Program-made: the position numbers and the translations under genes
Shown: positions 13,393 to 64,000 of the stretch, one piece after another
Numbering within the stretch: position 1 is the stretch's first letter
Layout of the letters: each line of letters starts with the position of its first letter
Notes under the pieces: model-generated
Told to the model about the DNA's origin: nothing
Database searches by the model: none
The model's input: only the letters and a program-made list of their open reading frames with translations
Origin: Liolophura sinensis
Lineage: Eukaryota; Mollusca; Polyplacophora; Chitonida; Chitonidae
DNA: 64,000 nt
NCBI RefSeq assembly: GCF_032854445.1
Contig: NC_088302.1
Coordinates: forward strand, 44,366,645 to 44,430,644
Direction of reading: 5' to 3'

Positions 13393-13532
13393 AATACTGC
13401 GAAGAGCTTCTTACTGATAACCCCAAGCCAAACATGTGTTCTGTGTCAACTGTACAAACTTCTTCATCTACGTTATCACCCTATATCCAGCCTGTTGCTC
13501 CTCCTCAAGTCGTCAATAACACGACTGTTGTG
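13393..13532 (+). CDS. CD225-A, variable N-terminal exon
   Basis: This exon follows acceptor TATTTCAG, is entered in phase 1, and ends in phase 0 at GTTGTG|GTAGGT. It encodes 46 residues, hydrophilic and proline/serine-rich (for example SPYIQPVAPPQVVNNTTVV), which form the cytosolic N-terminal segment. The end NNTTVV is nearly the same as the end of the matching CD225-B exon (SNTTVV), which strengthens the call. CD225 proteins (the IFITM, PRRT and SynDIG/dispanin group) have such a proline-rich tail before the membrane domain. A further start exon is expected upstream but was not identified. The next exon starts at 14802 after a 1269-bp intron. Confidence 0.8.
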
Positions 13533-13724
13533 GTAGGTTTGTGTACCAAATACATCGTACAACGTCATTCAACAGCAGCCATTTTTGTACGGGTAGTTCT
13601 CAGCAAGACACTCAACGCGAGGGAACAGCTCAGATGCAGGGCCCGTATTTATCAAGCAACTCCATAAAATGTCAAAAAACAAATTGTTATTAGCACATAG
13701 TTCTGCATTAAAGAATCAGTGTAT

Positions 13725-13945
13725 GAATTTCTAGAGCGAAACATTCTAGAGTAAAACATCTGAGAGCAAAACAGTCTAGAGCGAATCATTCCAGAGCGAA
13801 TCATTCCAGAGCGAATCATTCCGGAGCGAATCATTCTGGAGCGAATCATTCCAGAGCGAATCATTCTAGAGCCAAGCATTCTAAAGCGAAGCATTCCAGA
13901 GCGAATCATTCTATAGCGAAGCATTCTAAAGCGAAGCATTTTAGT
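13725..13945. repeat. 15-bp minisatellite inside CD225-A intron
   Basis: The unit GAGCGAATCATTCCA, with variants, is repeated about 14 times. The 95-codon minus-strand frame here is its translation (MIRSG/MIRSR repeats). Confidence 0.9.
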
Positions 13946-13969
13946 TGTAGCTGTGCCTGAAGTCTTAAG

Positions 13970-14035
13970 GCGTTTGGGAAATATTCTTGAGTACGGCGTA
14001 AAACCGTAACCACATAAATAAAAAAAATAAATAAC
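13970..14035 (+). mobile_element. MetaSINE tail fragment
   Basis: It reads GGAAATATTCTTGAGTACGG through CGTAAAACCGTAACC to an AAATAA tail. Only the last 60 or so bases are present. Confidence 0.7.
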
Positions 14036-14429
14036 TGTATTGGCTTTTTAATTTGGCTTAAATCTTAAATATAAAATATGACCTACCAGTATCAGTTAAT
14101 ACTTTCGAACAACTGGGCCCTGTACTCGAATTACCAACCAAAGATACTCATTCGCCATGAAGGTATGGAAAGATGACTATGGTAGTAGCGAGAATGAACA
14201 TACCAGACAAGAATCAAGTTGAAATCAGGCATCCAGTCAGAGATGGTCAATAATAATTCCCTTATTCTGAACGTTCTGTGAGAAAGATCCTAGATCGACC
14301 ATTTTAAAGTTTCAGATCTTAGTCTAAGGTACCTTAGATTCCAGCTTGCAAGGGTACGTTTTGACTTCTAACTTAATAACGCAGGAATGTTTTAGAAAAG
14401 ATGATTTTAATCGAGACATGGTCTCCGTG

Positions 14430-14668
14430 TCATAGAAGTTAGTGTGATAGCCACGCATGTGACACAGGAGTCTCTCACCACTGAGGTCCCTCTGGATTCA
14501 TTTTCCAGCTCATGCTTGCTTCCGCTCCGGTTGTACATGGGAAGCCTTCAATCTACCTGCAAGTGGTTGTGGGTTTCCTCCGGGATCTGCCTGGTTTTCC
14601 CCCACCATAGAATAACTGAAATATTCTTGAGTACAACCTAAAACACCAATGAAATAAATAAATAAACA
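14430..14668 (+). mobile_element. MetaSINE-type SINE in CD225-A intron
   Basis: It has a degraded tRNA-like head, GGTTGTGGGTTTCCTCCGGG and CCCCCACCATAGAATAACTG, then an AAATAAATAAATAA tail. It lies about 130 bp before the next exon. Confidence 0.8.
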
Positions 14669-14801
14669 AAATTTAATGGAAGTGTTTAAATGTGCGCATG
14701 ATATTATATGCATAGATTTCAAGTTTCCGAAAAGCATTGTCCGTCATCATCCGATGTTCGACAAAGAAGTACAATCTGTCCCGTTCTGCTTTATTTCTCA
14801 G

Positions 14802-14930
14802 AGCACCCAGCCAGCCATGACGCTGGTCTGCCAACAACCTCCCCCCGACAGTCACCTGGTTCTGGCATTGTTCACCACTTTTTGCTGTTTCTTCCCCGTA
14901 GGAGTTGTCGCGATTTTTTTCTCCGTCTTG
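14802..14930 (+). CDS. CD225-A, first hydrophobic (intramembrane) exon
   Basis: The exon has acceptor TTTCTCAG and donor TTG|GTAAGG, and is phase 0 at both ends. It gives 43 residues. A short polar lead (STQPAMTLVCQQPPPDSH) is followed by a hydrophobic segment with CC and FPVGVVAIFFS. This is the CD225 signature: cysteines, then P-x-G-x-V-A-I-x-x-S. In the family this segment enters the membrane as a hairpin, and the cysteines are often palmitoylated. Length and boundaries equal those of the CD225-C exon at 49109 (43 codons), and are one codon shorter than in CD225-B. FPVG replaces the commoner PLG. Compared with vertebrate IFITM, whether it has antiviral, membrane-fusion or trafficking function cannot be told from sequence. 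Confidence 0.9.
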
Positions 14931-17292: not shown

Positions 17293-17331
17293 TAGTTCTT
17301 CATTTTCATAATTTGAATATTCTTATTTCAG

Positions 17332-17493
17332 TCATCCAATTCGGTTCGAGCTGGAGATAACAATTCTGCCAGGCGTAATGGACAAGTTTCGTTTGCTTTG
17401 TCTGTCACCAGTATTGTGTTGGGCATAACCACAATGTCCATTGTCATGGTATATTTCTTCATCGAGGTCCTACCCAATTCCAAAGCCCGATAG
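17332..17493 (+). CDS. CD225-A, last exon (loop and membrane span)
   Basis: Acceptor TTATTTCAG opens a phase-0 exon of 53 codons plus TAG. It holds the conserved cytosolic loop SVRAGDNNSARRNGQ, which fits the CD225 pattern (AGD..GA...S). A hydrophobic span of about 25 residues follows (VSFALSVTSIVLGITTMSIV), then a short polar tail ending KAR. The span sequence SITSIVLG/SVTSIVLG is shared with CD225-B. With the two upstream exons the protein is at least 142 residues. It is convergent with CD225-B. The 54-bp array at 17700-18560 lies directly downstream, in the likely 3' region. Confidence 0.9.
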   Translation, partial: SSNSVRAGDNNSARRNGQVSFALSVTSIVLGITTMSIVMVYFFIEVLPNSKAR

Positions 17494-21556: not shown

Positions 21557-21721
21557 TCAACCGTAGTAGTAGCTGTATCCGAAGCCCACGGTGACGTATA
21601 CTACCAGAAGAATGATGTAGGTAAGTGATCCCAGGACGATACTGGTGATAGAAAACCCCAGTGATATTTTCCCCTTTGTGGCAGCATCTTCGTTGTTGCC
21701 GGCTCTAGCTGAGTCAGCCGA
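21557..21721 (-). CDS. CD225-B, last exon (loop and membrane span)
   Basis: The minus-strand exon follows acceptor ATTGTTTCAG and is phase 0, with 54 codons plus TGA. The loop is SADSARAGNNEDAATKGKIS. The usual acidic D after AGD-type glycine is N here. The membrane span LGFSITSIVLGSLTYIILLV follows, with a tyrosine-rich tail ending GYSYYYG. Tyrosine at the C terminus could be a sorting signal, but no standard motif is present. It aligns residue by residue with CD225-A and CD225-C over the loop and span. The full protein is at least 169 residues. Confidence 0.9.
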   Translation of the reverse strand, partial: SADSARAGNNEDAATKGKISLGFSITSIVLGSLTYIILLVVYVTVGFGYSYYYG

Positions 21722-22862: not shown

Positions 22863-22994
22863 CTGGCTGGAACAGATGATGGCCACAAGGCCTAGGGGCC
22901 AAACACATAACAGACAGCTGACAATGGCCAGTGCCATGTGGTTATTTGGCGGAGGTGCCGACGGCGGGACAATCAGTACATTCGGCTGTGTCGT
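22863..22994 (-). CDS. CD225-B, first hydrophobic (intramembrane) exon
   Basis: Acceptor TTGTTACAG and donor CAG|GTAAGC bound a 44-codon phase-0 exon. The lead TTQPNVLIVPPSAPPPNNH is close to CD225-C (TTQPNVTFVQP). The hydrophobic part ALAIVSCLLCVWPLGLVAII carries the CD225 signature, with two cysteines and W-P-L-G-L-V-A-I. The intron upstream (2866 bp) contains homopolymer runs and a SINE. Confidence 0.92.
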
Positions 22995-23137
22995 CTGTAA
23001 CAAAGGCAAAAGACATTTAGAAGTGCGCTCTAACAATGTATTTAATTAAAAGGGTCATCCGGAAATGTTTCTACCACTAACAAATAATGTCTGTAATGTG
23101 TTTGGCCCCTCACAAATATTAGGAACTGCAAAATCCC

Positions 23138-25860: not shown

Positions 25861-26075
25861 CACAACAGTCGTGTTGGAGTTGAACTGTGCAGGCGGCTGC
25901 ACATATGGCTGTCCGTACTGCGGGCCCCCAGGCTGTGCATACTGCGGGCCCCCAGGCTGTCCATACTGCGGCCCCCCAGGCTGTCCATACTGCGGGCCCC
26001 CAGGCTGTCCATACTGCTGACCACCATAGTTGTCGTATCCGTCCTTACCATATGCAGGTGGCGACTGAGGATAGA
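25861..26075 (-). CDS. CD225-B, proline/glutamine repeat exon
   Basis: Acceptor TTTTTTGCAG opens this minus-strand exon in phase 1. Donor GTTGTG|GTATGT closes it in phase 0. It encodes 71 residues: YPQSPPAYGKDGYDNYGGQ, then about five copies of an eight-residue QYGQPGGP-type repeat (one copy QYAQPGGP), then QPPAQFNSNTTVV. The repeat is a 24-bp coding minisatellite at about 25906-26020. Proline/glycine/tyrosine-rich tails of this kind are typical of proline-rich dispanins and may bind WW or SH3 partners or self-associate. That is inference. The copy number should vary between individuals. The start exon upstream was not found. Confidence 0.87.
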
Positions 26076-46450: not shown

Positions 46451-47390
46451 GATTTGTTGCTCAACATTTCATTGATTCCTCACTCCAATGAAATCAAAGC
46501 GGTTTACAGAGAAGAGTTTTCAAGACAAGTATATAGATTTTGATGTAAGAACGCGAAACCCACAACTGGAAATTTGGGTTTCGTCTGGGGAATCCCCTTA
46601 AACTCGCAGCGCGTGACCTGAAAGTTTTATATCTCTTCATATATGTCACTTCTTGCATTTTAGAGCTACATTAAAAAGCCCATGGGGAAGGGACAGAGCT
46701 AGAGATAGAGATTATTCTTTTTGTTTTCACGGTGTCCGTCATATATTTCTGGTTCACTCTACAATCAGCTGCTGTCCCGGATTAGAGGCATGATTTTTCT
46801 GAAGTTCTCTACAAAACACAACGCTCACGCTTCACAAATTTTATTAGCTATCAATAAAATTTGTGAACTAAAACTACAAACAATATTAAAACCCCGGCGC
46901 GTAGACAGGGCTCGAGACATAGCCAGAGATATGTCTCTAAGCGCGCTTGTTAGTGTAATCCGCTTGCCTACAGGTAAGACACCGAAGGTAGATTCCACAG
47001 TAGCTGGTGTCAGTAATTTTACGCTCCGCGCCGTTTCAAAGCCATTGTCCTATGACAGCCCTTGTAGCCATTTAATAACATACTCCTGAGGTCGGTCGTC
47101 CGAAGCAATAAAAAAAAAAGCCACTAGCCAAAATGGTATCATCCCGTTTTAAAGACGTGACTATTTACAGCGTCCTCTACAACACGCACCGCCTAATGAT
47201 GTATATCCGTGGCCCCAATAAGCAATGCATACACTGCATGTGTCGGCTTACTAGCATCTTACACGGCTTACACTCTTGAGCTGTTGTATAACCATGACAC
47301 TCATAAGCAATACAAGCACCGTGCATGTCCGCGCACATGGAGCTCACACTCTTGTGTTGTGTTTTAATCAGACTTTAAAGAAATCTCAAC
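46451..47390. other. no gene confirmed; upstream of CD225-C
   Basis: A 122-codon frame runs 46721-47089 (+). It has no recognised domain. The expected first exon of CD225-C should lie upstream of 48462 and was not identified. Confidence 0.35.
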
Positions 47391-47790
47391 CAACTGATTG
47401 CTTTCCTTATGTCCATTAGAACCATGTTTTCCTGGATCCCTCTTCAATCAGTTGTTTTTCCGGTGTTCAGTAGAACCATATTTTCCTGGTTCCCTCTGCA
47501 ATCAGTTGTTTTTTTCCGGTGTCCAGTAGAACCATGTTTTCTGGTTCAGTTGGGAATCTGTTGTTCACCCGTGGTCCACCAGAATCATGTTTTCCAAGTT
47601 CACTCTGCCATCGGGTTTTTCTTCAGTGTCCATTAGAGCCTAGCAATCCTTTTGTTTTGGTGGTCACCACTATAATCCGTAGTTTTCCTGATGCCTACAT
47701 GGCTGTTTTCCTGTTCTAAGCCGGAGTCAGTTGTATTCCTGATTTCCGACACCCCAGTAGCTGTTGTTTCCTGGTAATTATTAATACAGC
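47390..47790. repeat. about 55-bp repeat of GTTTTCCTGGT..AATC type
   Basis: The unit is TCCAGTAGAACCATGTTTTC plus CTGGTTCCCTCTGCAATCAG and TTGTTTTTCCGGTG. Six or so diverged copies. A related motif forms the array at 60540-61170 upstream of CD225-D. Confidence 0.8.
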
Positions 47791-47806
47791 TTTATTTTCT
47801 TTTTTT

Positions 47807-48057
47807 AATGCCCACTTTGGGGTCTTCGTGGTTCATGTGGTTAGCACGCTAGCGCAGCGTAATGACCAAGGAGCTTCTCACAAATGCGGTCGCTGTGCGT
47901 GGGAGGGTCTTGCAGCAACCTGCGGATGTTCGTTGGTTTCCCCCAGGCTTTGCCCGGTTTACTCCCACCCTAATGCTGGGTGCCGTCGTATAAGTGAAAT
48001 ATTCTTTAGCACGGCGTAAAACACCAAATAAATAAATAAATAAATAATGCCCACTTT
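47807..48057 (+). mobile_element. MetaSINE-type SINE with target duplication
   Basis: The body is 47819-48045. It has the head GTCTTCGTGGTTCATGTGGT, the central domain, and an AAATAAATAAATAAATAA tail. A 12-bp AATGCCCACTTT lies on both sides. Confidence 0.92.
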
Positions 48058-48461
48058 CAAGAATCATTTATTTTCCTAATACCGGTTAAAACCAGCTGCC
48101 CACTCACCAAAGCATTTATTTTCCTAGTCACCACGACAAGCTATTGTTTTTTCCAATGACAACAATTGCTTCTGCTTTTCCGTTTTGCTATTTTGTGGTA
48201 AAATCGCCTCGATCCAATAGTTCAGAAGTGTATTATCGTTTAATACATGTGTTAACTTGAGTTCTGACTCAAATTTCATTGGTTTAAAAAAGGTGAGGCT
48301 GGAATTAAAAATAATTCTGACTTAATTTCAATACACAGTTCTGAACAACTGACTTTTAAATGAGCCAAGTTGACATACTATTTAACTCACATCTGTTTAG
48401 GCAGCTGTTGGCTTTCAAAGAAAGGTGTCACACGTGCCTTAAACGTTTGCATTTTCCCCAG

Positions 48462-48778
48462 ATTTATCCCCGGAAAACCATTATCCTCCCAGTGAGGCGG
48501 AGTGTGTTGAGTCTTCTCAGCCGAGCAACCAAAGTCAGCGAGAACACATGCCCTTTAGGGAGTTGTATATACAAGTCTCCAACCTGCTGCATGAACAAAG
48601 TTCCAATCATCTGAATGAGAAAAGTTCAAATCAGCCGTGTGGACAAGCCTCCAATCAGGCGCGGTATGGACGAAGCTCTAAAAAGAAACACAGACAACAT
48701 CCAGGTGAACAGTATTCTCAGTCAGCGAGGCATAAACAGCGGTACAGGCAGCAAGAGACCAACCACCCTACCCCTGTC
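48462..48778 (+). CDS. CD225-C, long hydrophilic N-terminal exon
   Basis: Acceptor CATTTTCCCCAG opens the exon in phase 1 and donor GTC|GTACGT closes it in phase 0, as in CD225-A and -B. It encodes 105 residues: LSPENHYPPSEAECVESSQ, then a glutamine/asparagine/serine-rich middle, then a very basic stretch (GRSSKKKHRQHPGEQYSQ, HKQRYRQQ), ending NHPTPV. It is much longer and far more basic than the matching CD225-A (46) and -B (71) exons. The family's intracellular tail is thus variable while the membrane exons are fixed. Function of the basic tail is unknown. It could bind acidic lipids or nucleic acid. An alternative in-frame ATG lies at 48548, but the phase match favours the upstream acceptor. 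Confidence 0.78.
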
Positions 48779-49048
48779 GTACGTGAAATTCCTTCTTATG
48801 TAAATTTAGAAGAATGTCTCATTTTTAAAAGAGTAATTGAAGAATTCAGCACCTATATGCACTGTACCAAATACATGCAGATGTGACTAAACTTAATATG
48901 TTAGCAAAACTCTGTGCTCCCTTTTGTATGTTACAACCTACTTACGAACTGCCATAATACATTGTTCTCCATGTTTCATGTTACTGAGCTTAAACACAGT
49001 TTTTTCTTCAATGGGAAGATAAAAATGTAAAATACAAGACTTGTCCTG

Positions 49049-49072
49049 TAGAATCTCTCTCTCTCTCTCTGC
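49049..49072. repeat. (CT)n tract just before CD225-C exon
   Basis: TCTCTCTCTCTCTCTG lies in the intron about 35 bp upstream of the acceptor. An equivalent tract precedes the CD225-D exon at 63820-63839. Confidence 0.9.
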
Positions 49073-49108
49073 AAGCGTTCTTTATTTTATTTTTACATTA
49101 CTTTGCAG

Positions 49109-49237
49109 ACAACGCAACCAAATGTGACATTTGTTCAACCATATGAGACTCCGGAAAGTCACATGGCATTCGCAATATGCACTTGCTTTTTCTGCTGCTG
49201 TCCTCTTGGACTAGTTGCCATAATTCTGTCTAGTATG
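49109..49237 (+). CDS. CD225-C, first hydrophobic (intramembrane) exon
   Basis: Acceptor TACTTTGCAG and donor ATG|GTAAGT bound 43 codons, phase 0 both ends. The lead TTQPNVTFVQPYETPESH is followed by AFAICTCFFCCCPLGLVAII and LSSM. This is the most canonical CD225 signature in the window: four cysteines directly before P-L-G-L-V-A-I. The cysteine cluster is the usual palmitoylation site in IFITM-type proteins. Strong donor and acceptor support the boundaries. Confidence 0.93.
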
Positions 49238-49964
49238 GTAAGTTGTATCAACATACTGTTAAGTGATCTTTAAACAAAATGTAAAAACTTGTTAGTAGAT
49301 AGAATAAAAGTCTACAGCACTGAAGTAAAATCAGGGCAAAGACAACAGTGTGATATTTGGCAAACCGTCACATTTAACTGGTGAAAACAGGCCTCTTATC
49401 AGTTAACCTCAGTCAGGGTTTAGACAGAAGCATTACATGTTGCCATATATTATAATGTAAGTTAACCTCATATTTAAACCTATTCCAAAGCGCCACATAG
49501 TCACGACTGCGCAGAGCCATACACTGAGGATGACTGTCATTGTTCTTAGCTCATCTACCGCATTAAGCGCCCTAAATGGTTAGGTTTATTAACCTGGAAC
49601 TCGGTCCTGTCATCATAGCTGTCCTCAACGTATCAAAACTGTACCCGACGAAATCTGGATTCCGGTGATCTAAATGTAATTCTGAATCGACGCATATCAC
49701 ATAATTCTGCGGGAATAATAAAGGTGTTATCCTCACGTCTTACCACCTTAAACGGTAAAAAACAGTGCACATGTTTACAAAATCATTTGTAGGTTGACTT
49801 TAACAGTGTTGATAAATTAGGTTTGTCTGGTGTTGCTCTTGTATAGATTTGTGTACCGTGATCATTCACTGTGTCACCAAAAGAATATGTGCATATATGC
49901 ATGTCTCCATGTATGCTTGGGTTTTAACTTAAAGAAGGAGTTATACAATCTTTTTACATATATT

Positions 49965-50160
49965 GTGTCTTCTTGTGCCAAGGCATGACGCCACTATAAC
50001 ATCATGCCGAAGACATCAGATATGACACCCTACCCAGTCACATTGTACTGACACCGGGCCAACCAGTCCTGTTTCCTTTGCTCTAACACCTCAGTGCTGA
50101 GGCCAAACGAGGCAGCAACAAACATCATTTTTAACGTCCTTATTCCCGGTCTCCAAACTT
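49965..50160 (-). mobile_element. family-2 SINE, partial, in CD225-C intron
   Basis: It carries GACACCGGGCCAACCAGTCC, CTCAGTGCTGAGGC and GAGGCAGCAACAAAC on +. This is the complement of the family body. Confidence 0.75.
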
Positions 50161-51394
50161 GGAGGCGAACGAAAAAAAAAAATAACAAGAATACAATAAA
50201 AATTGAATTCATCAATACCACGTCTTCAAAGTATCGTATCTGTTTCTATTGTACTCATTACCTGCGGTAGTTTGTAGGATACGTATCCTGAAGATGACAA
50301 GACATTTTTTTCGAAATATTGAAACATCAAATATGTGACTTCTCAGTTTTTTCGGTGTATCTATGCTTTTGCATTATGATAAGCCTATTGGTGGATCAAA
50401 ATGCCTTTGCAATCACTACACTGAACAAATCAGGTATATTGTACACACTGCAGAGCGCTAAGCCTCTAGTGTGGAATTTCTGTTGTGATTGACCTCGTCA
50501 AAAACTCACATTGCTTTCTGGGAAAACGTGTATACATGTACTCTTACCCCAATACCCACAGCTTATAGACATTCTATAGGCCAACTACTTAGATCCGTTC
50601 CCCATCGCGATGTTTTGGACGCCAAGAATTGGAGAGACATCGACTTAAAATGTTGACGATGACCCACCAGAAGATTGCAAGATACATAGTACATAACATG
50701 CCTCTGTGGCTGACAATACGCAGTTTGTTAACCACTCTGACACTAATGACAAAAATCTTGAATAAATCAACAATGTTCCTATTAGACCTAGTTTGTTTTC
50801 TCCTACAGCGCTGGTCCCTAAAAATGGACACGCACACATAAACTTCTCTACAGAAATGGAATGCAAAATTTTCTGAAAAACTTCTTTTACGCATCTAATG
50901 CGTCAACAAATGTGGCCTCATCCCAAAAAAGTACGGGCATGAGCTGAACTTGGACTCACAGCGACAGCATCTTTATTAGAAACTAAGATAATATGTAGGA
51001 AAATTATCTCTACGCTAAGAGCTGACTTTAAATGTCGAAACTAAGTTTTCTGGTTTTCTTTACAAGCTTAATCAGTGGATTTAGTGAAGAATTCATCACT
51101 TAAAACGGATTTAGTTCATGAAGGAACCCATATTAGAGAACTGGACATCGCGTTTACAAACATAACACGTTTTTGAAATCCAGAAACGTTGTAGAACCAT
51201 AGTTTCTACATCGCCTGCTTAAATATCCTGCATGCTTTTTGTATTTTCGGCAATTGTCGATACATAAAAGTACTTCCCTGTATTATCTGGTCAAACTATT
51301 TTTTCATTCCACTCACATCTGCTGATTTTTCATTGCACTCACATCTCTTTGATTCTTTACCAACGTCTGGAATACTCGGGAAACATTCACAAAG

Positions 51395-51470
51395 GAATGA
51401 TTGAATGATAATGGCTTAACGCCTCATTGGCAATATTTCAGCCATGTCGTGGCGAGTAAACGTTCGTACA
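51395..51470 (-). mobile_element. 3' end of the third dispersed SINE-like family
   Basis: GATAATGGCTTAACGCCTCA, then TTTCAGCCATGTCGTGGCGA on + is the reverse of the 26957-27022 tail. Confidence 0.55.
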
Positions 51471-51755
51471 ATACGGTCGCAAATCAGATAGTTTGGCATA
51501 TTGGTTACACTGTAACTTATTCACATAACGTGGCCCAGGGACACGGCGAGGTCCTTTGAGAAGGTATATGGAGAGCGTATGCCCTTCGAATGTCTCTCTT
51601 CGATTTGGCGAAGATTATTCTTGGTCATAAGGAGACACCGTCGTGTTATGACCGAAATAACGCTGAACGCGACTTTAAACCCCAATCAAACTAACAAAAC
51701 ATTATGTACACATAAGAAATGGTCAACCACTACACATTTAAACTGCTTGTTTCAG

Positions 51756-51902
51756 TCAGAAGAAGCTCTGGCAGAAGGGGATTACGAAAATGCAGCCTTT
51801 ACCGGTAAAGTTTCAATAGGATTCTCTTTTGCTGCTTTCACTTGCGGAATGGTCATTCTTTGTTTGGCTACTTTTATACAAATTGAAATTTCTTTAAAAT
51901 GA
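51756..51902 (+). CDS. CD225-C, last exon (loop and membrane span)
   Basis: Acceptor CTTGTTTCAG opens a phase-0 exon of 48 codons plus TGA. The loop SEEALAEGDYENAAFTGKVS matches the CD225 consensus GD...A closely. The membrane span IGFSFAAFTCGMVILCLATF follows, and a short tail ends ISLK. The full protein is at least 196 residues. A possible poly(A) signal is AAATAAAG at about 52059. Confidence 0.92.
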   Translation, partial: SEEALAEGDYENAAFTGKVSIGFSFAAFTCGMVILCLATFIQIEISLK

Positions 51903-53274
51903 TAACAATTGGAAAAGAAAACGTCAAAAATGTCATTCCCTGTACAAATATTGTGGTATTTCCAAAAGGACAACTTGTGCTCTGATATATTTAAGATTAT
52001 AAACATCCTGTTATAAACATATGTTGCTCCAGTAATTTTCTTTCTAAATATTCCATGAAATAAAGTTCTAATCTTAAAATAATTATGGAAATTTTATGAT
52101 CATTTAAAAAGTGAGGAGTGTAAGTGTCTTTTTGATAGAAAGTTTTTATTATGAAATTCTGTTAATTTGTTATAAAATCTTTATTTTTATTGTTCTGTTA
52201 GGTAACTGTTGTACGTTTATTTTGAGCAGAAAATTATGTTTTGACATTTTTATTTTTGCAATTTGTTTTAAATTTGTGGTTATGTTAATTAGTTTTGAAA
52301 CTTCACTTGCTATTCTATAGCCCTCGACCGTTTTCGTATTACATATAAACAAGACGATTATTACGTCATCGAAACATGCACATGTGCATGTGTGAGGCAG
52401 ACGATATACAAACAACACTTGGCAGCAGTATTTATTTCCCGGTCAGAAATGTGTTATTGTCGAAAATTACAAGCAGGCGAGGCTACGTCTCGACCTAAAA
52501 TTATAACCTCGTCCACTTTATTGACTATAAAATTGCCGCTAAACACCCATAGAAGGAACATTATTTCTTAAATAGAAAGCTGTGTATATATCTTGTATTT
52601 TGCTTCGGGTATAAAGTTGTGCTAATTGGCTTAAAAAGTTGCATTCTGTGACTTTTCTTTGACTAGGAAATTGTGTTCAACATCTTTTAATTTTGTCTTA
52701 TTCCAATGCTATCAATAGGAAACTATCTTCATCATTTTGAATTAGCTTTTTGTTCTAACGTTTTGAAGACAAAATTCTCTTCACAAGTTTGGAACGATTC
52801 ATGTAATGATTTTGCTTTGAATAAACTTGTTTTCATAAAGCTTGATCATCTTTTCTGTTTGGTTTTCTTTTCAGTTAGACGTTGTGTTTATAAAAACTTT
52901 CACTTCGTTACACAGGTTCTATCCTATTTTATGGTATAAAACCACATTACAAAAGAGAAGAGTTTGGAATAGATTTATTTCCACAAAAGTGTCTTCGTCT
53001 GACACTGCCAAAGCCTAAATCCTGCAGAAATTATTTTGGGGCGTTCAACCAGATCGATTCACCTTTGTGTCAGTCTGTGATATCTATGATGGCCTTGCGA
53101 TTATTAACCTGGAAACGTCTTTATTGATTGACGTCTGGTATACGAATGTCTGTTTCGACGCATAGATTTGTAATGAGCGTTATTCGAGAAGAGCTCTTCA
53201 CTGGCGTACTTATCTATAAGCCGCACGTAAGAATCCAATCCCAATTCAGGACTTCAAAGGTAAAATATACCCCA
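51903..53274. other. 3' region of CD225-C, no further gene recognised
   Basis: AT-rich. A 3' part of the unclassified dispersed repeat lies at about 53095-53165 (GGTATACGAATGTCTGTTTC). Confidence 0.5.
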
Positions 53275-54420
53275 TGACACCATCAGGAAGCATGTCAAGA
53301 TGGGAAGGGCAGTGGTTACCACTAGGCTCTGTCCGTCTCCACCACCCATAACGACCACCATCAGGAGTCAGCAAGTATGCCAAAATGAGAGCCACAGTGG
53401 TTACCACTGGGCTCTGTCCGTCTCCACCACCCATAACCGAACCACCATCAGGAGTCAGGAAGTATGCCAGGATGGGAGCCACAGTGGTTACCACTAGGCT
53501 CGGTCCGTCTTCACCAATCATAACCTAACCACCATCAGGAGTCAGGAAGTATGTCAGAATGAGAACGACAGTGGTTACCACTAGGCTCTGTCCGTCTCCA
53601 CCACTCATAACGACCACTATCAGGAGTCAGCAAGTATGCCAAGATGAGAGCCACAGTGGTTACCACTGGGCTCTGTCCGTCTTCACCACCCATAACCTGA
53701 CCACCATCAGGAGTCAGTAAGTATGTCAGGATGAGAACGACAATGGTTACCGCTGGGCTCTGTCCGTCTCCACCACCACTATCAGGAGTCAGGAAGTATG
53801 TCAGGATGAGAACAACAGTGGTTACTACTGGGCACTGTCCGTCTCCACCACCCATAATCTGACCGCCATAAGGAGTCAGGAAGTATGTCAGGTTGAGAAC
53901 AACAGTGGTTACCACTGGGCTCTGACCGTCTCCACCACCCATAACCTGACCACAATCAAGAGTCAGCAAGTATGCCAGGATGAGAGCCACAGTGATTACC
54001 ACTGGGCTCTGTCCGTCTCCACCACCCATAGCCTGACCACCATCAGGGGTCAGGAAGTATGCCAGGATGAGAGCCACAGTGGTTACCACTGGGCTCTGTC
54101 CGTCTCCACCACCCATAACCTGACCACTATCAGGAGTCAGGAAGTATGTCAGGATGAGAACGACAGTGGTAACCACTAGGCTCCATCCGTCTCCACCACC
54201 CATAACCTGACCACCATCAGGAGTCAGGAAGTATGCCAGGATGAGAACCACAGTGGTTACCACTGGGCTCTGTCCTTCTGCACCACCCATAACCTGACCA
54301 CTATCAGGAGTCAGGAAGTATGTCAGGTTGAGGAGAACCGTGGTTACGACTAGGCTCTGTCCGTCTCCACCACCCATAACCTGACCACCATCAGGAAGTA
54401 TGTCAGGATGAGAACGGCAC
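53275..54420. repeat. 87-bp minisatellite, about 13 copies
   Basis: The unit is CCACCATCAGGAGTCAGGAA, GTATGTCAGGATGAGAAC, GACAGTGGTTACCACTGGGC, TCTGTCCGTCTCCACCACCC and ATAACCTGA. 87 is a multiple of 3, so the minus strand stays open for 280 codons (54377-53535) as a 29-residue repeat containing MGGGDGQSPVVTTV and LTYFLTPDSGQ. Confidence 0.95.
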
Positions 54421-54429
54421 TATATTTCA

Positions 54430-54487
54430 TGATGAGTGAAATATTCTCGTGAATGGCGTATAATACCAATGAAATAAATAAATAAAA
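54430..54487 (+). mobile_element. MetaSINE tail fragment
   Basis: GTGAAATATTCTCGTGAATG, CGTATAATACCAATG, then an AAATAAATAAATAA tail. It lies at the edge of the 87-bp array. Confidence 0.7.
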
Positions 54488-55016
54488 TAAGAATTCTAAC
54501 CGCTGACATTCAATAGTGTGTGATAATGATCTGACTTTTCAAAGTCAGCAAAAGTGAAGTGTTTACAGATGAATGTTGATACATTGATACGTTGATAAGC
54601 GTGGGGTATAATAACCGGTTTTATCCAGTTCTTCATAATATATACTTCCAGTCACACACGCACACATACACAAGTTAGCATGTTATGCACTAGTGTTTGA
54701 AAATCACCATAATACAAAGATACCTGACAAATACAAGATTTGTCAGGTACGTTTGCACACACATATATTTCGTTTCGATGGCTTATTATATACATTGTTT
54801 TGCGAATTATAGCAATTAAAGCGAATTACTTAACGAATCATCAATCCGTTAAAGCGATTTGCTAGTATATTACATTATATCCACCTCACCCCACTCCACC
54901 CCCGCCCCCACCTTTTTTAGCGCGACACTTTTAGTTCACCATCATATTACAATGAGCTGGTACAGAAAATAATTTCAATTCCCACATACTAAAATACAGT
55001 ATAAACAAAATGTAAT

Positions 55017-55202
55017 TTAAAGGGATTCTGAATCGACGCTGGTTGGCTGACAATGGAGATAGGGTTTCTCGGGGTTAAACTCTAAAAACTTGGTCACGCT
55101 TGAATAAATCGGCTGTACCTAACATTCAGCTTGGGCTAGGCATGGCCTTGACATTCCTACTTCTCACAACAGCCTATCAAAATCGATTCTGCATCCCTTT
55201 AA
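55017..55202. mobile_element. 178-bp MITE with TTAA target duplication
   Basis: Inverted ends AGGGATTCTGAATCGA and TCGATTCTGCATCCCT (two mismatches) lie inside TTAA at 55017-55020 and 55199-55202. There is no coding capacity. The TTAA duplication suggests mobilisation by a piggyBac-type transposase, although the terminal bases are not the usual CCC. Confidence 0.8.
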
Positions 55203-56399
55203 GCTTACACTATCTTTAATTAAATACGATTACCATGTCCAACATCAACTTCAATTAATCAAGCTATATTAACCTTGTTGGCAGGTGGATGGTATAAAGA
55301 CAAGTGATCTGTTTCCTTCTGCACATAAAAATCAGTGTTAAGTGAATTCCAAGATAGATGGCAGTCACCTGAAATAAGGCTTGTTTATTTGATTGAGTAA
55401 GCTTGTATCAATGTTGCTTAAACTGCACAAGGTTGTGGATCTGAAAGTACATTTTTACAGGTCAAACTGTACATTCTATTTAATGCATGTTTGGTGGGGT
55501 GGGGTGGGGGTGTTAATAAAAGGTCCTCATAAAGTATTGCTTTTGGGGTTGAAACTTGTGTTTTTCATTACGATGTCATCCTACCAAGCAAACCCAAAAC
55601 ACGTCAAATTAATGTAATACTCATAAGCAATATTGAGTAACTTAATTATGGATGAAAGATTAGATCAAAACGATAAATGCACTTTGTATATAATGGTACC
55701 CAATGATGATTAGCAATAATATAGAATCTAGCACTACAAATTATGTCAGCACAAAGTACATGGATAGTCGCATAACAAAATTTGCACAGCTGACAAACAA
55801 CTAACACCCTACATGATCATGACTAACAAAGATAATATCAACAGATACTAAAGTTTCATTTTTATTGTCGCATAAGCAATTGAGTTACATGAGCTACAAC
55901 ACATCATCACAAAAAAGTAAATAAATCATTTCGGGTTGTACTAAGTATACCAACAAGGAACAAAACGATATATTAGATGATATTATTGTTGGTCGAGGGC
56001 AGAGGACAATGTTGTTGTGGTATCTAAATTCTGACAACTTCGTCCAGAAAAGGCTGGCGGACTGGGTAGATTCTATCCAGCTGTTCTCAATCTATAGACT
56101 CGTCTGCCGTCTTCCGTGCATCTTAGCTTGGGTAATTCACACATTGTAATGACACTGGTCCTGGTCATTTACATGATAATAGCGGGGCAGACACGGTTTA
56201 GTGACTCCCACACACAAATGGAAGCGTTGCCTATCCCCCTGTTAAATAAACCCCAGGTTTAGTTCATACCGTTGCGATCTGAATTACGTGCACTAAGGCA
56301 CGTATACCGCCAAACCACATACAACTACGCACACTGATTCCTTCACGTTATATACAAACCCGTATGGCAAGCCGTTTTACGTTTAAATCCAAATTTTGT
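55203..56399. other. no gene recognised
   Basis: Single-copy AT-rich DNA with a G-rich stretch (GGTGGGGTGGGGTGGGGG) at 55493-55512. Confidence 0.5.
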
Positions 56400-57280
56400 G
56401 ATATGTTAAAATAATTTAAGATATTAGTTAAAGATATCAGAAATGATTTAATGATATCAAGAATGAATTAATGATATCTTATGATATGGCAGTCACCCCA
56501 ATTTATTTATTTATTTATTTATTTATTTGGTGTTTTACGCCGTACTCAAGAATATTTCACTCATACGACGGTGGCCAGCATTATGGTGGGAGGAAACCGC
56601 GCAGAGCCCGGGGGAAACCCACGACCATCAGCACGTTGCTTGCAGACAGTCACCCCAAACAAAAAGAATTAAAAGACATGACGAGCATAATTAAAGATAT
56701 CAATAAATGTAGTCTGTTTCTTGATATCTTCAAATCATTTCCAGATATCACGAATTCATGCCAACATATCACAATTTCAATTCATGATATCACGAATTTA
56801 TTTTAAGATATCATTAAATATAGTGGCTAGAAGGACATCAACTTCCCATTATTCCTAGTAAAAATATCCTTAGGTCTTTTATACTATAAAGTTCAATATT
56901 ATAACTTGTATGTTATTTGGCAAGAACATGAAACTGGGAAGTGCAAAAAAATCTGTAAAATTTCACTTTCAAGTCACGAGGCATAAAAATTACCAAGGGA
57001 CTTACTAATAGGGTTCACGGACATGCGTATTTCGCCCAATACTCCAGGCAAATGGCGGCAAGCACAACTTCGTCGGGCGCTCGTGCATGTCCACCATTTT
57101 TGGTTAGATCGCACGTGCGGCCTACGCAATGAAGCCTGGGATAGATTGGCCATTTTTACTGATATCATGAAAAGAATTCAAGATATCATTAATTAAATTT
57201 ATGGTATAATCTACTGAATTCGAGATATCAAGAAATGATTAGTATCCCTCATATCATAAAATGAATAGATGATATCTTAA
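56400..57280. repeat. GATATC-rich degenerate palindromic repeats
   Basis: The 6-mer palindrome GATATC, or close variants in ATGATATC/AGATATCA context, occurs about 18 times. It forms two blocks (56400-56820 and 57155-57275), spaced 15-35 bp, separated by a SINE and about 330 bp of other DNA. Confidence 0.75.
56489..56660 (-). mobile_element. 5'-truncated MetaSINE-type SINE with target duplication
   Basis: The body runs from about 56501 to 56644. The tRNA head is absent. The flanks share CAGTCACCCCAA. The truncation on the head side with a duplication intact indicates incomplete reverse transcription at insertion. Confidence 0.88.
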
Positions 57281-58261
57281 ATCCAATTCATGATTAAAGC
57301 TTCTCCTAATGTCCTAATATCTACGTTTATACCTCAACAGACCTAAAACTATTTTTGAAATATCGCATTTTATACCACTGAGCTAAGACCATTATTTATT
57401 TGACACTGCTGTTGCCAGAAAATTCCAAAATGTTGGCCTAAGGATACACATGTCGTTAGGCAGACAATTTAAAAAGTTCTTTGTTTTCTAGCCCTTGTGA
57501 TTGTCTTACAGAATAATAAGATAGAATGAGAAAGGAATAAATAAGTTTATAATGTTGGTATGTTCTGAACAAAATAAGTTTATAATGTTGACATGTTCTC
57601 TGAGGGCTATAATGGGTTGGCTGTCATGCTGTGCAAAAGAGGCACAAACATAAGAGTTAGGTCAAGATTTGCACATTATCTGACAAATGTCACATTTAAA
57701 TACTCTTGAGCATACTTTCAGTTTATCATTGGACCCGATATAAACATTTAGATTTGGAGTCCGTGGTCTTTCCGAGAATGGATTATCGAAGTTTCCATTT
57801 ATGTACCCTGATAAAAATGTTTTTAATTTAGTATCGCGTTACATGAATCATTGCGGTACAGGTCGAACAAAGCCAAACTGTCTATGCTTCTATACTAAAA
57901 AAAATGGCCTTTATTTCTCATGCTAATACATGTCCTAAAAACGGTCCTTCGAAACGGGGCAAAATACAAAATAAAACACTCGCGGGCGAACAATAGCGTC
58001 ATTATGTAAGTAATATACTCTCGTAAGCGGTGGTAGAAGAGACATCAGGGCCTACACCCCTCAGTTTATTATGTAACCGCTTACCAGGTGTATAATCTGC
58101 CATCAAATACCTCTCTCGGGCAATAACCCTTACTTACACTTCGATCTGTTGTAGGCCTCTACGTTATCTTTACGTTATATGTATATGTAAATAACTCATT
58201 TTGAACTTGGTGTAGCATGAAGTTCTAATTAATATAGAATAAGACTACAGTAGGTCTATAA
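57281..58261. other. no gene recognised
   Basis: AT-rich single-copy DNA; a short internal duplication AAATAAGTTTATAATGTTG lies at about 57538-57590. Confidence 0.5.
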
Positions 58262-58315
58262 ATCTTCAAAACCAGGAGAGTACGGCGTAAAACAGCAATG
58301 AAATAAAGAAATAAA
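58262..58315 (+). mobile_element. MetaSINE tail fragment
   Basis: GAGTACGGCGTAAAACAGCA followed by ATGAAATAAAGAAATAAAT. Confidence 0.6.
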
Positions 58316-58487
58316 TCCATCCACCGGTTTAATTTAACAATGCTGGGTTGGGTACATTTACACAGGTGTATAGGTGAATTTAATCATGGGCTATAACTTT
58401 AACACAGAACAAAGCTTACTCAAAATTCTAACACACGTTTAGCAGTTTGCACCCTTTTGAATAACCGAGTTCACTGATAATCTTATT

Positions 58488-58695
58488 CCTTGGAGCAATG
58501 ATTTATTTATTTATTTATTTGATTGGTGTTTTACGCCGTACTCAAGAATATTTCACTTGTACGACGGCGGCCAGCAGTATGGTGGGTGGAAACCGGGCAC
58601 AGCCCGGGGGAAACCCACGACCATCCGCAGGTTTTCTGACAGACCTTCCCACGTACGGTCGGAGAGGAAGCCATGAGCTTTGGGGCAATAATAAC
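58488..58695 (-). mobile_element. MetaSINE-type SINE, head truncated
   Basis: The tail lies at left (58498) and the central domain is close to consensus. It ends at GAAGCCATGAGC. The flanks GGAGCAATGAT and GGGGCAATAAT are a likely target duplication with two mismatches. Confidence 0.85.
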
Positions 58696-58726
58696 ATTTT
58701 TGATATTCAATGTTGCTAAATACCAT

Positions 58727-59479
58727 GGAGCCATAAAAGTGACATGGTGAAAATAAAATTTTTGGGAATGAAAAAAAAAAATGACATGGGGATTTTGGGG
58801 GAAAAGAATTTTTTTACAATCTGTTTAAAAAACACATATTCTCAGTTCCTGCGCTCAGTGCTTGTGAACTTCATGTGCACGTACGACTGAAACTAAAATA
58901 CAAATACAGCGTGCAGCCTTACCCTTATACAGCCTAGTTGAGCTCTGTCAATCTCAACTGCAACAGCCGTATGTGAGACACTATTCGAATGCATGTACTT
59001 GATCCAGCCAGGGTGGAACTAAGGCAACCTTTGGGATCAAAGGCCTTAACTTTATGTTACATATATGTCTGAGGATGGCTGTGATAAGTTTTAAACTTAT
59101 TGTTTTATTTGGTTGAGTGTTTACTTTATTAATAATAACCTCAGATTGTTGAAGGTTATACTATAAATCGTGTTGGCTTTCCCTGTCGTCTAAAAGAACA
59201 TTTTGGGACTGAGGAAGTATAATTTGTCAGCAACGAAAGTTAATTTGCAACAGCATAATGACACTGACGATCAGGCAACAGCCCCCTATATACAGATGAG
59301 ATCACAGCGTAATCTTTAATCGTGATGGGTCAGTTATGTCGGAGCCCCGACTTGTAAACTCGTGGCCCCGACTTTCAAAGTCGGGGGTTAAAAAAAACTC
59401 TCTTCCAAAACAAATTTTTTTCACCTTGTAATTTTTTCCTCTTCCAATTTTTTTTTCACCATGTCACTTTTACGGCTCC
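58727..59479. mobile_element. 753-bp inverted-repeat element (class unknown)
   Basis: The ends GGAGCC(A/G)TAAAAGTGACA and TGGTGAAAA.AAAATT are inverted copies of about 36 bp at 58727 and 59479. AT-rich sub-terminal blocks repeat the GGTGAAAA motif. No open frame of note and no clear target duplication. Confidence 0.75.
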
Positions 59480-60539
59480 GTAAATTACAGAACCTGGTAG
59501 AAAAGTTTGACGTGTTTCTCCTTCAGGAAAGTAACGTGCAGTCTCCATGAATGGACGACTTTACGTCACAACCTCGAAAGGCATGTTTACACTTCATCTT
59601 GCTGTGAGCTAAAGCGTTAACTCTCTGTCCCGACGTTTTGTTTTATTTTGGTATCCTTGTAATCATCACTGGACCTCTTGTATAAAAGATGATAATAATA
59701 GTATAGAAATTAATCTTTCCGAAAAATCGTCGTCGGAACATTCAGCCATTTTGAATGATATTTAACACCGCCAAAGTCTAGGAAATTGGCCAGAGAAATA
59801 GTCTCGATGCATCCACCTTCACATGATGGGCCCAGCTGGAGCGCAGAAACATTCCGTAGTTTTAAATGAGAGACAGGATGATCGGAGGTATTAGTTTAAT
59901 TCCACCGTCGCGGATGTTAAACCGGGAAAGCTGGGTTTCGTCGGGGGATTCCCCTTTCACATTTGTATGTGTAATTTCAGTAGCTGGAGAAAAACACGGA
60001 AGACATAACATCCTCAATGGTTCGCTGGGCACGTAACTTTTCCTGCTCCACTAAAGGCTACACGAGCGCATTGATTTTGCTTACTATTTATGTTGTTCGT
60101 TTGTCAACTTCAAAAATATATATAGCCTAATTTTTGCGTTGTGTCATGACATACTAGCACATGTAGGTTGAGCTTTTCTCTTCAACACATCAGAAATCAA
60201 CACAGCTTGAGCACTAATTCTTTGAGCTGTTGATGTTGAAAGTGAAGTCATAGTATTTGCGTGGGTGGTAACACCGGAGAAAGTTTTCAGTTCTATCCAG
60301 AACACACAAATTCTGATATATTTTAACTAGGTTCAAAGTAGCAGTGCAAAATTTATAGTGCATCAACAACCGATGACGTATGTGTGGCTGTATAATCCTT
60401 CATTCTTATGTTCGGAGGCAGGTATTGTACCCAACTGCACGAATTTGCGCACGTGTAACCTAAAGTAAGCGTAGACGGCCATACCCTAGACAAAAAGAAA
60501 TATAACAACTAAACGATGCTCAGATGAGGCCGTTTTCTC
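59480..60539. other. no gene recognised
   Basis: It includes a short block (CTGGGTTTCGTCGGGGGATT) near 59930 that also occurs near 46580, so a minor dispersed repeat may be present. Confidence 0.45.
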
Positions 60540-61170
60540 GATTCAGTGTCCATTACAACAATATTTTTAAGGCTCACTACTGAGGTCTACTGGAAATTAT
60601 TCTGTTGTTTTCCCGGCCCCATTTGAACAATGTTTTGTGAGGCTCACTACTGAAGTCTACTGGAAATTATTCTGTTGTTTTCCCGGCTCCATTTGAACAA
60701 TGTTTTGTGAGGCTCACTACTTTGTTTTCCCTGACCTAGTAGACGTAATTATTTTAAGCCTCAGCCAATTGAAGAATCACCTATTTTTAAACCGCATGCA
60801 CTCTGTGCACTCAGTTTGCTTTTACTCACGAAATCACGTGGCTGTCAATTGTCCAACTGGACGCAGTTACTTTCCCGGTGAACACAGCAACCAGTTATTT
60901 TCCTTGTCCGAATAGACCTAGTTATTTTCCTGGTGCACGCCACAACCTGTTGTTTTCCCTGCCCTAGTAGATCCAATTACTTTCCTGGAGCACCACAAAA
61001 CCATTTATTCTTCCTGTCCAACTAGATCCATTTATTTTAAAGGTGCACGTCATGAGCAATTATTTTTCCTGTCCTAGTAGGTGCAATTGTTTTCCTGGTG
61101 AACGCCACAACCAGTTATTTTCCTTTCTCAACTAGACCCAATTACTTCCTTGGTTCACGCCACAACCACT
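60540..61170. repeat. about 60-bp degenerate tandem repeat
   Basis: Units are GGCTCACTACTGAGGTCTAC then TGGAAATTATTCTGTTGTTT TCCC, grading to TAGTAGATCCAATTACTTTC CTGGTGCACGCC. It is related in motif to 47390-47790. Confidence 0.8.
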
Positions 61171-61179
61171 TGTGGATGG

Positions 61180-62830
61180 TCCTGAAGGAGGTCAAATAGA
61201 TGATCATATAGGGGTGGCCCTTGTTGTGATTATAGTGTGGTTGTAGAGGCGGCCATAGTCCGGACGGTGGTCATATAGAATTGTCCTGGATGGTGTCACA
61301 AAGTATATGTGGAGGTGGACATGTAGGATAGTTCTGTGGTGGTCATAGAGTACCCCTGGAGGTGTTCATCTAGGATAGCCGTGGAGGTGGTCATATAAGA
61401 TACCATACCATAAGATAACCCCATACAGAATAACTCTTGAGGACGTAGGATAGTCCTAGATATTCATATAGGATAATCCCGAATGTTGTCAGAATGCGCC
61501 TGGAAGTGTTCATATAAGATAGCCCTGAAAGTTACAACGCTGGGACTAACCCATGACCGCCTCCAGGATTATACCATGGCTGCCCCCAACACTATCCCAT
61601 GCCCGTCTCCACGACTATCCAATGGCCGCTTGCACGACCACTCAACCTGCACTACCTGCAGCACCCCCACCCTGAACGTCTCTTGGACTATCCCATGAAC
61701 GCCTCCAGAGGCAGCAGATGGCCACCTCAGGATTATCCCATGACCACCTCCAGGGCTACCCTATATGATCACCTCCAGGGCTATCCTATATGGCCACCTC
61801 CAGGGGTAACCCATATGATACCTTCAGGATTATCATATATGAAGACATTCGGGGCTATCATATATGACCACCTCCCGTGCTATTCTGTATAACCACCTCC
61901 AGGACTGTCATATGTGGGACTAACCTACATGACCATGTGCAGGGCTATCCTGTATGACCACTTCAAATGCTATCCTGTATGACCGCCTTCCGGGCTAACC
62001 ACATCCAGGGCTATCTTATATAACCACTTCCAGGGGTGTTCTGACGACATTCGGGATTATCCTATATGAAAAACCTCCAGGGCTATCCTATATAACCACC
62101 TCCAGGGCTATCCTATATAACAACTTTCAGGGTTATCTTATATGACCACTTCCAGGCGCATTCTGACAACATTCGGGATTATCCTATATGAATACCTCCA
62201 GGGCTATCCTATATAACCACCTTCAGGGCTATCCTATATAACAAGTTATAAGTCATGGGGTGGTCATGGGGTGGCCCAGGAGGAGGTCATCAGAAAGTCC
62301 TGGGGTGCCTCTGGAGGTGGTTATGGGATAGTCATGGAGGTGGTCATGGGATAGTCATGGAGGTGGTCATGGGGTAGTCATGGAGGTGGTCATGGGGTGG
62401 CCCTGAAGGCGGTCATGGGGTAGTCATGGAGGTGGTCATGGGGTGGCCCTGAAAGCCATCATAAGGTAGTCATGGAGGAGGTCATGAGTTAGCCCTGGAA
62501 GTTGTCATCGGGTGGTCCTGGAGGCGGTCAGCGGTTGATCTCGGAGGAGGTCATGGGATACTCATGGAGGTGGTCATAGGGTGGCCCCTGTGGTGATTAA
62601 ACTGTGGTTGTAGACGCGGTCACTGTTTGGCCCAGCGCGTGGTCATGAGGTGGTCGTGGAGGCGATCATGTTTTGGTCCTGAATGTGTTCATGAGGTAGT
62701 CCTGGAGGTGGTCATGAGGTGGTCAAGAGGTGGTACTGGATGTGGTGAGGAGGTGGCCTTAGAAGTTGTCTCAGGGTGGTCCTGAAGGTAGTCACAGGCT
62801 GGTCCTGGAAATAGTCATTGGTTATATCAT
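61180..62830. repeat. short-unit array in three alternating orientations
   Basis: Block 1 (about 61180-61545) carries GGTGGTCATATAGGATA and TCCTGGAGG-type units. Block 2 (about 61550-62245) carries the complement, TATCCTATATGACCACCTCC and AGGGC. Block 3 (about 62255-62830) returns to GGTCATGGGGTAGTCATGGA. Units are about 21-30 bp. Confidence 0.88.
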
Positions 62831-62860
62831 GGGAATGTAACATTTATATCTGTTCTACAG

Positions 62861-62904
62861 ATTTGTCTCCGGAAACCTGTTCCCAATCGGCTGATTCCCC
62901 CAGT
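62861..62904 (+). CDS. CD225-D, probable start of hydrophilic exon (possibly disrupted)
   Basis: Acceptor ATCTGTTCTACAG is followed by AT TTG TCT CCG GAA, which aligns base for base with the first codons of the CD225-C exon at 48462 (LSPE in both) in the same phase. The similarity continues to CCCAGT. Read on, the frame stops at TGA 62938-62940. The true end is therefore unclear: a short exon, a decayed exon, or a changed splice. A separate candidate lies at 63095-63186, entered in phase 1 and ending CTT|GTAGAC in phase 0, with basic composition (SKGSNKKSSKNP). Confidence 0.4.
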
Positions 62905-63013
62905 GTGATTCTTGTTATGTTATTGACAACACAAGAGTGATGAAATGTAGGCTCAAATGTTAATGTATTTGCACGTGGACAACTTACGTGTTCTTGGCTG
63001 TTTTTATGGCAAC

Positions 63014-63048
63014 ATTCGAGAGCCCCGATACAAGAGGGGCTCTCGAAT
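63014..63048. other. 13-bp perfect hairpin
   Basis: The arms ATTCGAGAGCCCC and GGGGCTCTCGAAT have a 9-base loop. With small bulges the stem extends to about 17 bp. It lies between the two candidate CD225-D exons. Confidence 0.85.
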
Positions 63049-63819
63049 TGTTGGACAACTTTCTGGTCAACAGTATGAGCAAACGTCTGTTCAGGCAGGC
63101 AACCAAGCTCAACTCACCAATCTGACGAAAAGGCATCTGCACGTTCCAAGGGGTCAAATAAGAAAAGCTCCAAAAATCCTATCGGTCTTGTAGACAAAGC
63201 CGTCTTCCGTCCCATGAGCAGCGATACGGGTTACAAGAAATCGACAATGCGGAGAGTGAATTCCTTTCTCGTTTCCTATATTCAAAATGTAATAAAAATA
63301 TATGCGCACTCTTTACATTTTTATAGAAGTGACTAAAGTTTGAAGGATACATGAAAAGAAGGCTCAAAGTTTTAAGGGGAATTAAAAAATGTATGCTAAA
63401 AAATTTAAATATTTTCACTATTGATCCACATTTTATATCTCTTAATTATCTCTCTACTTTATAAATACTTTCCAATAATGGTCGGAAATTTTCGAATATG
63501 ACGTCAACGTTGAACTTACTGGCTTTATAGCGGGACCAGTTCAGCGGTAAACCAGGCCACCTAATTTCAGCATTGGCCAGTGGAACCTGAGAAAAACTGT
63601 AGTTTCAAGCCATTTTTACGCCCTAAGCAGAAAGCCGAGAATCTTTTTTTGTTACTTTACATCTTGGGAGACATCATAAACTACATATTAAAAAAAAAGA
63701 AACTTTTCGTCTTTCCTTTAACATCTGGACGTAAGAACATCTCATTAAATTCCATTTCTCCTCTTAAGCTATATTTCATTTACGAGCATTCACGATTGTT
63801 AAAGCAATATCGTTTTTTT

Positions 63820-63839
63820 CTCTCTCTCTCTCTCTCTCC
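63820..63839. repeat. (CT)n tract before CD225-D exon
   Basis: TCTCTCTCTCTCTCTCTC about 50 bp before the acceptor; its position matches the tract before the CD225-C exon. Confidence 0.9.
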
Positions 63840-63887
63840 GCACCGGCATTTGAAGAACATGTATTTTGTTTTTCTGATACTTTATAG

Positions 63888-64000
63888 ATGTCGGAACGAT
63901 ATGTGACCCTTGTTCAACCGGATGGCACTCACTACGATAACACAGCTCTGGCAATATTCACTTGTTTTTGCTGGTACCTCCCTCTTGGACTAGCCGCCAT
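63888..64000 (+). CDS. CD225-D, first hydrophobic exon, cut by window end
   Basis: Acceptor GATACTTTATAG opens the exon in phase 0. The 37 full codons read MSERYVTLVQPDGTHYDN, then TALAIFTCFCWYLPLGLAA and part of an I codon. This matches the CD225 signature (cysteines then P-L-G-L-x-A-I). The lead YVTLVQP resembles CD225-C (NVTFVQP). The exon begins with ATG exactly at the splice site, so translation could start here if the upstream exon is dead. The last exon lies beyond the window. Confidence 0.88.
   Translation, partial: MSERYVTLVQPDGTHYDNTALAIFTCFCWYLPLGLAA

Follow-up and report, generated by a model that had tools for sequence, protein, structure and literature searches.

The CD225 family includes antiviral and nerve-cell proteins, and a stretch of chiton DNA that carries several CD225 loci close together raises the question of how many of these loci are genes and to which side of the family they belong. 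The window analyzed here is the whole stretch of 64,000 nucleotides from Liolophura sinensis (C8:44366645-44430644). It holds three CD225 domains that are complete and a fourth copy that is broken, and it lies inside a larger local cluster; the CD225/dispanin family is known, and what is added here is a local cluster of further members. Coordinates follow the numbering of the window, and negative values and values above 64000 lie outside it. The six-frame search with exon profiles covered 264 kb, i.e., the window and 100 kb on each side, and the whole-genome searches covered 609 Mb in 632 contigs. The CD225 loci of the window are made up of the following exons.

13393..13532, plus strand: gene A exon 1, N-terminal part ending in ...VVNNTTVV, with a phase-1 acceptor and a phase-0 donor (sequence reading)
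14802..14930, plus strand: gene A exon 2, first CD225 half, with GT donor and AG acceptor (genome-wide Pfam match, exon profile)
17332..17493, plus strand: gene A exon 3, second CD225 half and stop (profile made from exon 3 of B and C only, E 1.2e-8)
25861..26075, minus strand: gene B exon 1, 24-bp tandem repeat with QPGGPQYG-type units, ending in NSNTTVV
22863..22994, minus strand: gene B exon 2, first CD225 half (genome-wide Pfam match, exon profile)
21557..21721, minus strand: gene B exon 3, second CD225 half and stop (exon profile)
48462..48778, plus strand: gene C exon 1, polar, Q/S-rich N-terminal part, an open frame with splice-like borders and a copy on the other arm of a duplication
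49109..49237, plus strand: gene C exon 2, first CD225 half (genome-wide Pfam match, exon profile)
51756..51902, plus strand: gene C exon 3, second CD225 half and stop (exon profile)
63888..64000, continuing to 64016 outside the window, plus strand: D, a broken first-half CD225 exon (profile, Pfam and DNA search)

The joined exons of A, B, and C match the Pfam domain PF04505 (68 model positions, cut-off 27.1 bits) over nearly its full length, with 67.8 bits for A (9e-19, positions 1-66), 64.0 bits for B (1.4e-17, positions 1-67), and 57.2 bits for C (1.9e-15, positions 2-67). Together with the genome-wide Pfam listing, this match forms the independent evidence for the three genes. The local exon profiles were built from the cluster exons themselves, and their E values of 4e-21 or better against their own sources arise by construction; in reversed-region controls, the best E values of these profiles were 0.043 for exon 2, 0.23 for exon 3, and 0.031 for a wider exon 3 profile.

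In all three genes, the introns between the exons are of the GT...AG type and of phase 0 by direct reading of the predicted models, and a phase-0 intron divides the CD225 domain at the loop between its two hydrophobic segments. A splice site in this loop is described as a feature of nearly all eukaryotic dispanins examined (PMC3282796). The PF04505 match and this family splice site bear out the CD225/dispanin membership that the first-pass annotation had given to A, B, and C. Exon 1 of each gene is entered by a phase-1 acceptor, which calls for at least one further 5' exon and therefore at least four exons in all. An exon with an ATG was found for none of the cluster genes, and for B, where the search ran up to position 36000 only, there were 16 candidates, none of them convincing.

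As read from the sequence, the products of A, B, and C have an N-terminal part that is polar or rich in proline and tyrosine, followed by two hydrophobic segments with a short loop between them, in which a glycine is conserved. Each of the three has two Kyte-Doolittle maxima of 2.1-2.6, and two hydrophobic maxima are present in all six complete domains of the wider cluster. The features ascribed to the dispanin family are two helices, the loop splice site, a G-D in the loop, and an A-x6-A motif (PMC3282796). The loop motif reads G-D in A and C and G-N in B, while the A-x6-A motif has its first alanine in A, B, and C and a serine at the second position in all three. Over 19 residues, gene A exon 1 has a weak alignment with the last part of B exon 1 (E 0.056).

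The wider cluster spans ~171 kb, from exon 3 of a gene Z (-55592) to exon 2 of a gene G (115483). Six of its loci (Z, A, B, C, F, and G) have a complete CD225 domain, and three copies of the D type are incomplete. The parts that lie outside the window or reach beyond it are given below.

Exon 3 at -55592, minus strand: gene Z, 78.9 bits for the joined exons
Outside the window, plus strand: gene F, 48.1 bits
Exon 2 at 115483, minus strand: gene G, 56.6 bits, two exons 14 kb apart
81756-81884, plus strand: E, first-half exon copy of D, an open exon for which no second half was found
44198..64000 in the window and on to ~71.5 kb, then tandem repeats, no strand assigned: duplicated block, with its inverted match at -47.5 to -19.1 kb

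The genome-wide Pfam search returned at least 14 CD225 matches, five of them in the cluster region (Z, A, B, C, and E), and this count is a lower bound because D, F, and G escaped it. Amino-acid identity is 42% between A and B, 35% between A and C, and 45% between B and C, and on these values a single recent duplication was rejected as the origin of the whole cluster. The first-pass annotation had said as much, and its statement holds for A, B, and C but has to be narrowed for D, which has copies at 92-93% DNA identity. The recent copies observed are D with E and an inverted D, and C with an inverted copy devoid of CD225. Eight pairs were tried by the NG86 method; both values were obtained for four (Z-B, B-A, D-E, and C-E), and Z-A gave no silent value. 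The Z-B pair, of which Z lies outside the window, has a dN of 0.27 and a dS of 1.30, and the B-A pair has 0.54 and 1.74, the latter silent value being near saturation. As estimated from these sequence counts, the Z-B and A-B pairs differ less at replacement than at silent sites.

The fourth locus, D, reaches 27.6 bits against PF04505 for the piece scored, barely above the cut-off, and matches the first half of the domain only. Its final codon, just beyond the window end, is an in-frame TAA stop. The second-half exons found within the 264 kb are those of Z, A, B, C, F, and G, and none was found for D. A putative exon upstream of it, suggested by a 23-base likeness to C only, runs into a stop. 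Upstream of exon 2, C and D have only likenesses of 13-36 bases besides the exon 2 match itself. For want of a second half and because of the in-frame stop, D was rejected as a fourth gene. The earlier count of at least four CD225 genes thus comes down to four CD225-bearing loci with splice-site-like borders, one of them a half; their strands (A, C, and D plus, B minus) are all as claimed, by sequence reading and profiles. Likewise, the PF04505 search of spliced models, which the first-pass annotation had proposed, recovers A, B, and C but only half of the domain in D.

A genome-wide DNA search with 201 bases of D gave four matches, namely D itself, two copies (E and an inverted one) at 92 and 93%, and C at 69%. 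The inverted D copy near -37 kb carries a frameshift. Between D and E, dN is 0.032 and dS 0.034 over 126 bases (NG86), and the four differences behind these values are too few to prove that constraint is absent. Downstream of all three D-type copies lies matching sequence (D, 64.3-65.0 kb; E, 82.6-83.3 kb; inverted copy, -37.4 to -37.8 kb), with open frames which we take to resemble a retroelement gag. Matching gag-like frames behind each incomplete D-type exon suggest that exon 3 was lost before the copying.

Both C and D are contained in an inverted duplication of ~27 kb (L009-L028 region), whose main pieces are ~74 to 98% identical and whose arms flank A and B. The far arm has no match to 49054-50033 and 51368-51885, which hold C exon 2 and most of C exon 3, and a CD225 profile search of the far-arm counterparts to these two exons gave no match. 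The CD225 exons of C were probably lost in the far arm and not gained by C, because they are present in A, B, and Z. A copy of C exon 1 lies in the far arm at about -22.5 to -24.4 kb on the minus strand; it carries a very long 24-bp repeat array of QPYEQSSI-like units, and no CD225 exon was found beside it.

Whether the cluster belongs to the antiviral subfamily can be judged from residues on which IFITM3 depends. The activity of IFITM3 needs R85 and F75/F78 (PMC11730294), and it needs G95 of the GxxxG (G91/G95) oligomerisation motif (PMC7665892). The corresponding positions were found by gap-free counting from the loop glycine, with residue numbers taken from the literature and an alignment free of IFITM sequences, and the placement of F75/F78 presumes a gap-free spacing from helix 1 to the loop. 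The loop arginine equivalent to R85 is absent in all six complete cluster domains and present in PRRT1 and in a gene on C6. Of the GxxxG motif, the first glycine is kept and the second is absent in the same six domains, a test that is not sharp because the G95 glycine is likewise missing from PRRT1 and the C6 gene. The arginine is reported to be missing from some human CD225 proteins too (PMC11730294).

IFITM1-3 (dispanin A) share with the cluster the CD225 domain, two hydrophobic segments, the loop intron, and the genomic clustering, but in the cluster the R85, G95, and F75/F78 positions are occupied by different residues, as counted without gaps and without a direct IFITM alignment. Furthermore, vertebrate DSPA genes are described with two coding exons only, (PMC3282796), whereas a third coding exon lies upstream in the predicted models of A, B, and C. 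On loop residues and exon count, A-D were rejected as members of the IFITM subfamily. The term IFITM-like, where it stands for that antiviral subfamily, does not survive the difference at the R85, G95, and F75/F78 positions, which by the gap-free count extends to six of six complete domains. The central-layer arginine of R-SNARE-like CD225 proteins is also missing, its place being taken by A, S, A, E, Q, and M in Z, A, B, C, F, and G, respectively, and this absence counts against a SNARE-mimic mechanism.

PRRT1/SynDIG4 is a trafficking partner of AMPA receptors, and among the six entries listed by a PDB search with the cluster profile, it was the sole significant one (9zks, E 5.2e-15, 80 chain residues), a result that tells only which relatives have solved structures. 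Like the cluster genes, PRRT1/SynDIG4 (dispanin D1) has the CD225 domain and lacks the second GxxxG glycine, and an extra N-terminal coding exon, as in the cluster models, is described for DSPC and DSPD1 (PMC3282796). It differs from the six complete cluster domains in that local identity is 22-33%, and it has a loop arginine six residues before the glycine, which the cluster lacks. The C6 gene is a nearer PRRT1 relative, with 43% identity to PRRT1. This PRRT1-like gene (C6:56707577, L006, and L037) has retained the loop arginine, and its exon 1 and that of B have similar starts (VYPxxPPxYG, by eye).

In a tree of 14 rows, which has no IFITM, PRRT2, or SynDIG1 row and leaves seven of its 11 inner branches open, PRRT1 stands with the C6 gene and the divergent L033 and L034 (split 99/99), and the cluster, three C4 genes, and L036 stand opposite. 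Long branches lead to F and G of the cluster and to L007 and L036. The cluster genes are not plain PRRT1 orthologues, because they lack the loop arginine and because the tree places PRRT1 beside the C6 gene and not beside them. Invertebrate dispanins are said to resemble subfamilies C and D (PMC3282796), and we infer, more tentatively, that the cluster genes fall on the C/D-type side of the dispanins and not within the IFITM subfamily. An NCBIfam search with four proteins gave no match above the cut-off.

The same genome has further CD225 genes, in which the CD225 domain is without an intron.

C4:4596845 (L003): CD225 gene without domain intron
C4:22084955 (L001): CD225 gene without domain intron
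C4:10543775 (L007): CD225 gene without domain intron
C1:63645314 (L034): CD225 gene without domain intron
C8:38598693 (L033, at 38.6 Mb): CD225 gene without domain intron

These single-exon-domain genes share the CD225 domain with the cluster, the three on C4 being on its side of the tree, and they differ from it in the undivided domain. Such intron-free domains contrast with the loop splice site of nearly all eukaryotic dispanins examined in PMC3282796. Several CD225 genes in one mollusc are also reported from Aplysia, with an IFITML set of 10 genes (IPR007593; PMC9334734). Among the open-licence papers listed by searches on dispanins, CD225, and IFITM in molluscs and invertebrates, no title or abstract opening describes a mollusc CD225 cluster.

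With a probability of roughly 0.64, A, B, and C are working genes of a tandem, non-IFITM dispanin family that has expanded locally, and they would serve as small trafficking adaptors of endosomes and the Golgi. The solved topology of SynDIG4 is a re-entrant helix and a transmembrane helix (PMC13262616), and the A-C proteins would take this topology, with a re-entrant pair of helices before a single transmembrane helix. They would sit as adaptors in endosomal, Golgi, or plasma membranes, where the variable N-terminal parts may set the partners and the CD225 hairpin may act on membrane or cargo.

Another reading sees in the cluster an antiviral restriction array, the counterpart of the vertebrate IFITM cluster, which stiffens or reroutes endosomal membranes and blocks virus entry. 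Arms-race families often show tandem, divergent, and partly broken copies, and the cluster copies are all of these. The 10 Aplysia IFITML genes have been filed as antiviral candidates by their domain (PMC9334734). We consider this reading unlikely, since R85, G95, and F75/F78 (PMC11730294; PMC7665892) are without counterpart in the six complete domains and the Z-B pair is under overall constraint. Expression reports from other invertebrates point both ways: a PRRT1-type CD225 gene of Hydra is up ~6-fold in the symbiotic state, with the algal symbiont (PMC6019070), which speaks for such an array, and a bryozoan CD225 gene is down 2.18-fold upon parasite infection (PMC7460649), which speaks against it. 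Clustering and turnover favour a defence role, and the absent IFITM residues oppose it. Slightly more doubtful is a defence role independent of the IFITM subfamily, in which clustered, fast-turnover CD225 genes with differing N-terminal exons would act against pathogens at the membrane without the R85/GxxxG chemistry; if true, the IFITM arrangement would have been reached by a different route.

The cluster genes could also be neuronal receptor-trafficking partners like SynDIG1 and SynDIG4, as the closest solved relative, PRRT1/SynDIG4, is proposed to hold receptors in mammalian endosomes (PMC13262616). The C6 gene is a better candidate for this part, with its loop arginine kept and its grouping with PRRT1. 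According to PMC7653359, moreover, the receptor-partner role of SynDIG1 (dispanin C) cannot be dated, and molluscs have few dispanin C genes (0-2 in three species), and a neuronal role appears less probable than either form of defence. Least probable, by a clear distance, is that the cluster is mostly decaying duplicated sequence with only one or two working genes; the D-type copies (D, E, and the inverted one) are all incomplete and C has an inverted copy without CD225 exons, but in A, B, and C the open frames and splice sites are intact over three exons. The reading of A, B, and C as working, non-IFITM trafficking adaptors is preferred. The cluster adds a well-delimited CD225 set in which complete, broken, and CD225-less copies stand side by side, and on it one can ask whether clustered non-IFITM dispanins work in defence or in membrane traffic, and whether the loop residues of IFITM proteins were present ancestrally or gained later.

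Apart from the CD225 loci, scanning the window against Rfam and for tRNA genes gave no hit in either case. Two very similar hydrophobic open frames, as judged by eye, lie at 15965-16609 on the minus strand and at 41822-42367 on the plus strand and are perhaps a dispersed repeat; the former has no Pfam match. Open frames at 3456-3743 and 6439-6768, on the minus strand, have PAN and C-type lectin matches below the cut-off and possibly belong to one gene. At 36022-37110 on the minus strand, a transposase is present in two adjacent frames, with HTH_29 and DDE_3 above the cut-off, and is read as being of the Tc1/mariner type.
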